The notes beneath the pieces were generated by a model, which saw nothing but the letters and a program-made list of their open reading frames with translations, did no database searches and was not told the DNA's origin. Positions 3,257 through 40,204 of a stretch of DNA of 64,000 nucleotides are shown in pieces. The DNA is from Flavobacteriaceae bacterium (GTDB lineage: Bacteria; Bacteroidota; Bacteroidia; Flavobacteriales; Flavobacteriaceae). Where the stretch lies: the NCBI GenBank assembly GCA_019634365.1, contig JAHQVM010000003.1, positions 45,492 through 109,491 of the forward strand. Reading direction: 5' to 3'. The position numbers and the translations under genes were made by a program. Every line of letters starts with the position of its first letter. Positions within the stretch are counted from its first letter, which is position 1.

Positions 3257-4425
3257 AGGGTGACCAATTGTTTTTTTGCAACCGTTTCAAACGCTTGTTC
3301 CAAGTCTGAAATCAAATCCTTCTTGTCTTCAATTCCTACCGAGAAACGCAGTAAACCATCTGCAATGCCCTGACGCTGTCGCTCTTCTGGTGTTAATAAG
3401 GCATGCGAAGTTTTAACTGGGGATAATATGGAAGATTCCACTCCAGCAAGGCTCATGGATTGCTTAATGAGTTTTAAGGATGACATAAATGCATCCGGAT
3501 CTATGGAATCAATCAATTCAAAAGAAAGCATTCCTGTAAAACCACGCATCTGACGTTTCGCTATATCATGATCTGGATGATTCTTCAATCCAGGATAGTA
3601 TACCTTATGAACCAGTGGATGCTTGTCCAGCCACTTGGCTAATTTCTTAGCATTCCTATTTTGTGCCTTCACACGAACCACCATAGTTTTCATGCTACGT
3701 TCCAAAAGCCAAACTGTATAATCGCTCAAACTGCCTCCGAAATTCTTGGCCAAATTCCAAATCCGGTCTATATGCTCTTGGCTAGCCGCTACGGCACCCG
3801 CACAGATATCGCTATGTCCTCCCATATATTTGGTGGCACTGTGCACCATGATATCGATTCCAAAATCGGCAGGGTTCTGGTTTACTGGAGATGCAAATGT
3901 ATTATCGATAATACTTGTTATTCCACGTTCTTTGCAAATACGGGTAATCATCTCTAGATCAGTTATAAGCATCAATGGATTTGAAGGCGTTTCCACGTAG
4001 ATAATTTTTGTATTGGGCTTCACCTTCGACAAGAAATCCTCTTCAGAAAAGCCATCGGTAAAATCGAATTCAATCCCCAACTTGGGTAACTCTTCGACCA
4101 TAAAATTAAAAGCACCCCCATAAATGGTTTTTTGCACCACCATATGGTCACCGGTTTTCAGAAAAGCCAATAAGGTATGGCTAATGGCAGCCATTCCGCT
4201 TCCAAAAATAAGACCAGCTTCACATTTTTCCAAGGCTGCAACCTTCTTGGCCAAGGCCTCTTGGTTGGGAGTATTGAAATATCTTGGATACCGCTTAATA
4301 TCCACATCTTCATAAGCATATGAACTGGAAGTGTATATAGGAGAAACAGCTCCTTTAAACTGTTCATCCTCTATGCCTCCCGTATGAGTACAAACGGTGT
4401 TCATACCAAATTCGTTGGATTTCAT
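3253..4425 (-). CDS. PLP-dependent trans-sulfuration enzyme (cystathionine gamma-synthase/lyase family)
   Basis: GLIFGSGMAAISHTLLAFLKTGD, SATKYMGGHSD PLP lysine motif; overlaps bshB1 by 4 nt. Confidence 0.9.
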   Translation of the reverse strand: MKSNEFGMNTVCTHTGGIEDEQFKGAVSPIYTSSSYAYEDVDIKRYPRYFNTPNQEALAKKVAALEKCEAGLIFGSGMAAISHTLLAFLKTGDHMVVQKTIYGGAFNFMVEELPKLGIEFDFTDGFSEEDFLSKVKPNTKIIYVETPSNPLMLITDLEMITRICKERGITSIIDNTFASPVNQNPADFGIDIMVHSATKYMGGHSDICAGAVAASQEHIDRIWNLAKNFGGSLSDYTVWLLERSMKTMVVRVKAQNRNAKKLAKWLDKHPLVHKVYYPGLKNHPDHDIAKRQMRGFTGMLSFELIDSIDPDAFMSSLKLIKQSMSLAGVESSILSPVKTSHALLTPEERQRQGIADGLLRFSVGIEDKKDLISDLEQAFETVAKKQLVTL

Positions 4426-38201: not shown

Positions 38202-39104
38202 ATGAAAAAGCTATTCATCTTAATGGTATCTGTCGGATTTGTTTTTACTTCCTGCGTGTCGAAAAAAACATATGCCGAATTAGAAGCCAGACAAAAAGAA
38301 ACTCAAGATCTTTTAAATACAGCAACGGTTAAACTCAATGCCTGCGAAGCAGATAGAGCTGCGGCCAATGCACGGATTGCTTCCTTGGAAGACCGTATTG
38401 CCGATCTTCGAAAAACCAATTCGGATCTTATTCAAAGCTCGAAAGATCTAACGATTCTTACCAAACAAGGAGCAACGAACCTAGAGAAGTCATTAGAAAG
38501 TTTAAAGGAAAAAGACCTTAAGATTAGTCGACTCCAGGACGCCTTGAATAAAAAGGACAGTGTAACACTGGCATTAGTGACCAGTCTTAAGAAAGAGGTA
38601 GGACTGGACGATGAGGACATTGAAATCAATGTTGAAAAAGGCGTGGTATTCATTTCCTTAAGTGATAAAGTACTATTTAGAAGCGGAAGCTATAACCTAT
38701 CTACAAGAGCCAACGAAATCCTTGGAAAAGTTGCTACGGTAATCAATAGTAAACCAGACTTCGAAGCCTTGGTAGAAGGGCACACCGATAACGTTCCATA
38801 CAAAAAAGGAGTACTGGAAGACAACTGGGACTTAAGTGCGAAACGTTCTACTGCCGTAGTAAGAAAACTAATGGAACTAGGAGCCAATCCAGCACAGCTC
38901 ATCGCTGCAGGAAGAAGTGAGTTCGTTCCATTAGTTCCTAACGATACTGCTGAGAATAAATCGACCAACCGAAGAACCAAAATATACATCTTACCGAAGA
39001 TCGATCAATTCTATGAAATGATTGAAGACGAATTGGAAGTGCTTTCCTCTGAAGGAGGCGGCGGTGATGTTGAAGGTGGCGGTGAAGATGGCGACGGAAA
39101 CTAG
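38202..39104 (+). CDS. OmpA family lipoprotein
   Basis: Lipobox FVFTSC; coiled coil; 'VEGHTDNVPYKKG...NWDLSAKRSTAVVRKLMELG...NRRTKIYILP'. Confidence 0.93.
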   Translation: MKKLFILMVSVGFVFTSCVSKKTYAELEARQKETQDLLNTATVKLNACEADRAAANARIASLEDRIADLRKTNSDLIQSSKDLTILTKQGATNLEKSLESLKEKDLKISRLQDALNKKDSVTLALVTSLKKEVGLDDEDIEINVEKGVVFISLSDKVLFRSGSYNLSTRANEILGKVATVINSKPDFEALVEGHTDNVPYKKGVLEDNWDLSAKRSTAVVRKLMELGANPAQLIAAGRSEFVPLVPNDTAENKSTNRRTKIYILPKIDQFYEMIEDELEVLSSEGGGGDVEGGGEDGDGN

Positions 39105-39124
39105 TCATTAAATCAGAAGATTAT

Positions 39125-39152
39125 AAAAAGCCCAGCACTTGCTGGGCTTTTT
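39125..39152 (+). terminator. Bidirectional-looking intrinsic terminator
   Basis: AAAAAGCCCAGC-actt-GCTGGGCTTTTT between convergent genes. Confidence 0.9.
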
Positions 39153-39174
39153 ATGTTTCCTATGCAATTTATTC

Positions 39175-39576
39175 TTAAGATCCCTTTGCCATCTCTTGGG
39201 AAAATTCCAGAACAATGTACTCGGCAGGATGTACGATGGCCACCTTCACACTAACATTCATGACCCCATTGGTAATATCTTCGGCCGTCATGGTGGACCC
39301 CAGACCGCATTCCACGGAAAAGGCGTCCGATGCCTTGGCTCCTTGTAGGGCTCCCTCCTTCCATATAGCAGTTAAAAAACTCCCTATTTCACTTTTCACA
39401 GCTTCCCAGGTATTTTTATCATTGGGTTGAAATATATAGTTCTGAGCGGCAAGCTTGCAAGATTGTTCGATAAAAGTCATGGTTCTCCGAACCGAAATAT
39501 CGCTCCAGTCCATGGATTTAACAGTTTCCATGGCACTTGCTAAATTTTGGGGCATTAAATTCTCCTGGTTCTCCAT
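39175..39576 (-). CDS. Orphan phage-tail/contractile injection system sheath C-terminal domain protein (133 aa)
   Basis: 'WSDISVRRTMTFIEQSCKLAAQNYIFQPNDKNTWEAVKSEIGSFLTAIWKEGALQGAKASDAFSVECGLGSTMTAEDITNGVMNVSVKVAIVHPAEYIVLEFSQEMAKGS' matches the ending of sheath proteins; ATG at 39576, 10 nt past the sua5 stop. Confidence 0.82.
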   Translation of the reverse strand: MENQENLMPQNLASAMETVKSMDWSDISVRRTMTFIEQSCKLAAQNYIFQPNDKNTWEAVKSEIGSFLTAIWKEGALQGAKASDAFSVECGLGSTMTAEDITNGVMNVSVKVAIVHPAEYIVLEFSQEMAKGS

Positions 39577-39586
39577 TAATTTCAAA

Positions 39587-40204
39587 TTAAATCTCCAAAC
39601 TCCCCTTCCCTTCTCGAATGAGTTCGGGTTCTCCAGAGGTTAAATCGATAACGGTCGATGCTACATTGCCACCATACCCCCCATCGATCACCACATCGAC
39701 CAGATCACTCCATTTTTCATAGATCAATTCGGGATCGGTAGTATATTCTATCACTTCATCCTCATCCTTAATAGAGGTAGATACAATGGGATGCCCTAAC
39801 TCACGCACAATCGCCTGAGCAATAGAATGATCGGGTACGCGGATTCCGACCTCTTTCTTCTTTTTAAAAACACTGGGTAAATTATTGTTGCCAGGCAATA
39901 TAAAAGTATAGGGGCCTGGCAAGGCTCGTTTCAACAACTTAAATGTACTGGTGTCGATTTGCTTTACATAATCGCTCAAATTGCTCAGGTCTTCACAGAT
40001 AAAAGAAAAGTTGGCTTTTTCCAACTTCACGCCTTTAATTTTTGCAATGCGTTCCAGAGCACCTTTATGGGTAATATCACAGCCTAGGGCATACACGGTA
40101 TCACTGGGATAAATTACCAATCCACCCGCCTTTAGTGCATCCACTACCTTCTTTATTTCTTTGGGATTGGGATTTTCTTCGTAAATTTTAAGGAATTCTG
40201 CCAT
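39587..40204 (-). CDS. L-threonylcarbamoyladenylate synthase (Sua5/YciO/YrdC/YwlC)
   Basis: 'GGLVIYPSDTVYALGCDI...KRALPGPYTFILPGN...VGIRVPDHSIAQAIVRELGHPIVSTS'. Confidence 0.92.
   Translation of the reverse strand: MAEFLKIYEENPNPKEIKKVVDALKAGGLVIYPSDTVYALGCDITHKGALERIAKIKGVKLEKANFSFICEDLSNLSDYVKQIDTSTFKLLKRALPGPYTFILPGNNNLPSVFKKKKEVGIRVPDHSIAQAIVRELGHPIVSTSIKDEDEVIEYTTDPELIYEKWSDLVDVVIDGGYGGNVASTVIDLTSGEPELIREGKGSLEI

Follow-up and report, generated by a model that had tools for sequence, protein, structure and literature searches.

Neighbouring subunits of a contractile sheath are joined by strand exchange in the handshake domain, and the chain so formed is started by a gp25-like protein (Alg9) and ended by a cap adaptor, both of which mimic the handshake (PMC8894135). 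In the free sheath monomer, the N-terminus is a helix lying on the two long helices of domain I, and it later extends into the next ring (PMC6088184). Altered sheath subunits of the T6SS co-assemble with normal ones and block function in a dominant-negative manner (PMC5797969).

The gene described here encodes the C-terminal handshake domain of an extracellular contractile injection system (eCIS) sheath, minus the rest of the sheath. The domain, its fold and its motifs are the same in eCIS sheaths (AlgoCIS Alg2, 7adz; PVC Pvc2-4; AFP Afp2-4; Anabaena All3325, 7b5h); over about 100 residues aligned by Foldseek, the lone domain is 51% identical to Alg2, 49% to All3325 and 42% to Pvc2. Unlike these proteins, it has neither the N-terminal arm nor any further sheath domain, carries other residues in place of Y26 and M63, and lies outside any eCIS operon. 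Like gp25 and the sheath initiators (PF04965, PF10934), it is small and single-domain, with a strand-exchange fold that is possibly related, and the mode of action proposed below is similar to that of gp25. It differs from them in giving no PF04965 or PF10934 profile match and in being descended from a sheath, not from gp25. A limited search of open-access papers turned up no earlier description of a sheath C-domain that stands alone and is kept by selection.

A stand-alone handshake domain and its surroundings

The gene occupies 39175..39576 on the minus strand of the window (the whole stretch of 64,000 nucleotides that was analysed) and encodes 133 aa plus stop. The frame is complete, with its ATG at 39576 and its stop codon at 39175-39177, and it starts 10 nt past the stop codon of the upstream gene, sua5 (39587..40204, minus strand, 205 aa); both points agree with the first-pass annotation. 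On its other side lies an ompA-like lipoprotein gene (38202..39104, plus strand). A hairpin flanked by runs of A and of T (AAAAAGCCCAGCACTTGCTGGGCTTTTT), seen on sequence inspection at 39124..39153 with no strand assigned, is a probable terminator shared by the ompA-like gene and the lone domain. With these two genes as neighbours, there is no cluster of tube and baseplate genes around the lone domain. Nor does the chain have room for an N-terminal arm or a further sheath domain, as the profile match already begins at residue 20 and sua5 closes off the upstream side. The source genome (G000) is 88.6% complete in 144 contigs and, judged by this fragmentation and completeness, appears to be a metagenome assembly.

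The first-pass annotation had recognised a sheath C-terminal domain from the sequence alone, quoting a peptide that corresponds to residues 29-129, and profile searches bear this out at a level well past what chance would give. The Pfam profile PF17482 (Phage_sheath_1C) matches model positions 2-101 of 104 with an E value of 1.3e-16 and 61 bits, well above the curated cut-off of 26.9 bits. PHROG tail sheath families also match (best 7e-23), as do the eCIS sheaths in the PDB (E 5e-31 to 4e-14), where the region matched is the last ~110 residues of the solved chains. At E values up to 10, neither PF04965 and PF10934 (gp25 / sheath initiator) nor PF14065 (Pvc16-type cap) was listed, and the NCBIfam search gave no match.

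The predicted structure leads to the same identification. An AlphaFold model built from an alignment of 58 relatives (mean pLDDT 88) has the fold of sheath domain I, and its best 33 Foldseek matches in the PDB are all sheath proteins, with TM-scores of 0.6-0.66. The overall rmsd to these sheaths is large, compared with 1.3 A for one shorter match of 88 columns; this and the TM-scores probably reflect the terminal strand, which is folded back in the monomer model and exchanged with neighbours in the particles. A weak match (probability 0.84) was obtained to 2ia7, which we take to be gp25-like. By DSSP, the model has an N-terminal helix at residues 12-21, before the two long helices; the codons predicted to form it (codons 11-21, 39514..39546, minus strand) take the place of the sheath sequence upstream of the C-domain. 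Among relatives this helix has a similar hydrophobic pattern without conservation of its sequence, and an amphipathic character was rejected since its hydrophobic moment is not significant. The N-terminus was also considered as a relic of the first codons of the sheath itself, for which the start in G007, a second genome carrying the gene (MNEEKIPPP, against MNELMIKSP in the related genome G003), is a doubtful case that G000 does not share. Codon 63 sits in the second long helix, which by its position would correspond to the tube-attachment helix (PMC6088184). The model of a full-length sheath was poor (pLDDT 62).

Origin at the ompA-sua5 site

Comparison of the site across nine genomes of the genus (G000-G008) places the lone domain in a series of related arrangements. 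In G003, a complete second eCIS lies between the ompA-like gene and sua5, which are thus the left and right flanks of the island; we call the sheath type of this second island type B, as distinct from the resident type described below. G006 has the same kind of type-B cluster, complete as far as the contig goes, on a contig that stops short of the flanks. In G008 the island is down to one gene of cap-adaptor size, a sheath of 525 aa, two tubes and the final 169 residues of the tape measure. The surviving genes of this reduced island (L092:12900-16880) are all open, the tape measure being only its 3' third, and the baseplate and spike genes are gone. The sheath C-domain is the sole remainder of the island in G000, G001 and G007, the last of which also appears to be a metagenome assembly. 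The site is empty in two of the nine genomes (G002 and G005), which have only a terminator-like hairpin between the flanks, and the region is fragmented in G004. A short stretch on the minus strand of the G005 spacer (L115 ~2445-2470) is like the last sheath codons (ATGGCAAAAGATCT); it is possibly a deletion scar, at a length too short to be sure.

Over the C-domain, the lone domain is 69-72% identical to the full-length type-B sheaths of the sister species (G003, G006 and G008), and it shares the ompA-sua5 site with G003 and G008. Those sheaths are 525-526 aa long and are followed by two tube genes, within a full eCIS in G003, whereas the lone domain has none of these; the type-B tube has no close counterpart in the G000 assembly, where its best match (43%) is the resident tube. 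Because the relatives show full, reduced, C-domain-only or empty states at the same site, the comparison of sequences identifies the lone domain as, by origin, a remnant of the sheath gene of a lost second eCIS island. The first-pass annotation had seen no visible remnant of a longer gene. That is correct for this sequence taken alone, and it fails once the relatives are considered, as it follows from them that the site formerly held a full-length sheath.

Its further proposal of an operon link with sua5 did not hold. The lone domain owes its place beside sua5 to the former position of the island. In G001 the two genes are kept apart by an oppositely oriented WG-repeat gene, and the lone domain there appears to start at a TTG and to have an upstream region of its own. 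The 10-kb flanks of the related type-B loci of Flavobacterium, Mucilaginibacter and Pedobacter contain neither sua5 nor an ompA-like gene, so that the neighbourhood is not conserved in these genera. A functional link was therefore rejected: of the loci compared, those of this genus alone use the site, and the pair is separated in G001. Judged from gene order, the linkage is the island's address and not a functional operon. Besides WG-repeat genes, the interval between ompA and sua5 in G001 (L093:6758-13085) and G007 (L094:5353-11714) contains a number of small genes and one resembling a sigma factor, and the lone domain lies to one side of the WG-repeat gene in G001 and to the other in G007; from its content the interval looks like an insertion hot spot.

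Lone sheath domains are rare. In 400 genomes of the family, matches outside G000 and G001 all lie in frames of at least 450 aa, save one 62-aa fragment, and a search of 396 genomes of the phylum gave just one more frame shorter than 250 aa, in G435, from another family of the class. This gene (~110 aa; L120 ~3519-3854, plus strand; G435:C1:2480520-2480852) is also a stand-alone Phage_sheath_1C domain, without an eCIS gene in 7 kb; it is an independent truncation that begins further into the domain than the one described here, and none of 101 genomes searched has a stand-alone counterpart of it. An order-wide sample added one more short frame, in G990, with apparent counterparts of ~570-600 aa in related genomes.

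Solitary full-length sheath-type genes also occur. Two of them, L097:3258-4661 (G005:C166; MKNYYLFSLVCLLWLGFPGYSQVNPN...) and L225:1315-2886 (G381; MNKRFALSFLLFFVFSYPILSQVNN...), begin with an apparent Sec signal peptide, and no tube or baseplate genes were seen near them (within 15 kb in G005 and ~1.5 kb in G381); a secreted or periplasmic sheath protein would be unexpected. Two others, L213:1360-2868 (G344) and L221:1471-2901 (G266), have no obvious signal peptide and no tube gene within ~1.5 kb on either side.

Sequence change in three species

A tree of 70 C-domains groups the three lone domains in a single clade (100/97) that lies within the full-length type-B sheaths; the deeper branching order is left unsettled by the 112 columns available. 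The lone domains of G000, G001 and G007 are mutually 64-69% identical, with pairwise pS of 0.77-0.84, at which synonymous sites are saturated, and pN of 0.19-0.25. The codon model gave an omega of 0.016 (0.045 at an earlier optimisation step), a value that is far below 1 and whose exact size is unreliable because dS is saturated. None of the three genomes has a stop, a frameshift or a neutral substitution pattern in the gene. In a neutral simulation run at the lowest neighbour dS estimate, not one of 2,000 runs ended with all three copies free of stops, and identity fell to 23% or less. By these sequence comparisons the lone domain is under purifying selection in three species, where it stays open and is not decaying. 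Since intact copies are carried by three species under such selection and without signs of decay, the first-pass description of the domain as domesticated is reasonable.

For the same three genomes, pN is 0.02-0.04 in sua5 and 0.04 in the ompA-like gene; when the same region is compared, it is 0.16-0.20 in the lone domain versus 0.03-0.05 in the C-domain of the resident sheath, so that the lone domain changes its amino acids about 3-6 times faster. A pN that is low, yet above that of the neighbours and of the resident C-domain, indicates a protein under constraint, though of a looser or different kind than that on a working sheath.

Alignment to 67 full-length sheaths shows that nearly all sheath motif residues are kept, including the C-terminal PAE[FY]IVL strand. 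All three copies have lost two internal positions that are strongly conserved. Residue 26 (39499..39501, minus strand), a Tyr in all 67 sheaths, is Asp here, Glu in G001 and Ser in G007, and residue 63 (39388..39390, minus strand), a Met in 88% of them, is Glu in all three lone domains. Such swaps from hydrophobic to polar residues fit what is expected once a covering partner is gone. A third change was flagged at residue 132, in the tail. The alternative of independent recent truncations is disfavoured by the monophyly of the clade and by the shared derived residues at positions 26 and 63.

Possible roles of the retained domain

The window holds no other sheath gene. Outside it the genome has a single significant sheath match, a 636-aa sheath on contig C142, and it is there that the contractile system suspected to lie elsewhere in the genome was found. 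Pfam matches on C142 comprise a Pvc16-type cap, the sheath, two gp19-type tubes, CIS_tube, spike, gp25, tape measure and eCIS_core, with large baseplate-sized genes interspersed among them, and from its gene content the cluster is apparently complete. The C-domain of this resident sheath is 51% identical to the lone domain, so that cross-assembly between the two is uncertain. The resident eCIS is of one type in all three carriers, and genomes with other eCIS types do not have the lone domain; among three related genomes, this co-occurrence may be due to common descent alone.

That a fragment was retained suggests that it has a job of its own, most likely, we infer, as a modulator of sheath assembly in the form of a soluble handshake monomer. 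The island was deleted down to the handshake domain of the sheath in the common ancestor of the three species, and the domain gained a new short N-terminus and has been retained since. It is predicted to fold as a soluble monomer, and the closed state may be held because the predicted helix at residues 12-21 precedes the same two long helices on which the N-terminus of a free sheath subunit lies. The protein would keep the surfaces that accept the strands of its neighbours and donate its C-terminal strand, and would have no N-terminal arm to hand to the next ring. Docking on a growing sheath in the manner of a gp25-type initiator or a cap, it could stop or limit polymerisation, and the resident eCIS on C142 would be the obvious candidate partner. 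The fast amino-acid change counts against a modulator, because a tightly fitted partner would not predict it; so do the unconserved sequence of the N-terminal helix and its lack of significant amphipathicity. We hold the explanation as a whole, from island remnant to retained modulator, tentatively, at somewhat less than an even chance.

The same fast change, much faster than in the resident sheath, sua5 and ompA and yet constrained, would suit a protein that has taken up a new function unrelated to contractile systems, for example as a soluble binding or scaffold protein that uses the strand-exchange surface as an interaction site. Such a protein could change its position relative to sua5 without being lost, as happened in G001, and the solitary sheath-type genes of the family, two of them with apparent signal peptides, indicate that sheath proteins exist outside eCIS loci. 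What makes this reading unlikely, if not strongly so, is that the canonical sheath motifs are nearly all kept, the PAE[FY]IVL strand included, which suggests that the geometry of strand exchange still matters. Fast evolution on a conserved fold would also be seen in an antagonist of foreign contractile tails, such as those of myophages, that poisons the sheath assembly of an incoming phage in the cell; sheath subunits are known to co-assemble in a dominant-negative way (PMC5797969), and contigs in a viral collection encode sheaths with this domain. The matches on those contigs are at most ~50% identical to the lone domain, however, and the neighbouring genes, by the gene listing of the region, do not suggest a defence island, so that we consider this improbable.

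Slightly lower still we place a minor structural part in the resident eCIS particle, as an alternative terminal sheath layer or a baseplate-proximal ring. Handshake mimics are normal at both ends of a sheath (PMC8894135) and every carrier has the resident eCIS, but proteins of the gp25 and Pvc16 types are already present in the resident cluster, and the lone domain is missing from genomes with other eCIS types. A slowly decaying, functionless remnant that is still open by chance is very improbable. It would agree with a last piece of a deleted island, with the empty site in two of nine genomes and with faster change than in the neighbours; it was rejected on the substitution pattern and the neutral simulation, as three copies remain open and 64-69% identical at saturated synonymous divergence with omega far below 1, and the shared derived residues oppose three independent recent truncations.

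Returning to the modulator, a handshake domain freed from a lost eCIS could have become a dedicated regulator that acts in trans on another contractile system in the same cell, as length limiter, terminator or blocker, or it could block contractile phage tails; this generalisation is possible and rather doubtful. A naturally selected handshake domain without an arm would lend itself to asking how sheath polymerisation is started and stopped. The full, reduced, single-domain and empty stages are all preserved at one site within one genus, and they show how an injection machine of many parts can be reduced to a single conserved domain.
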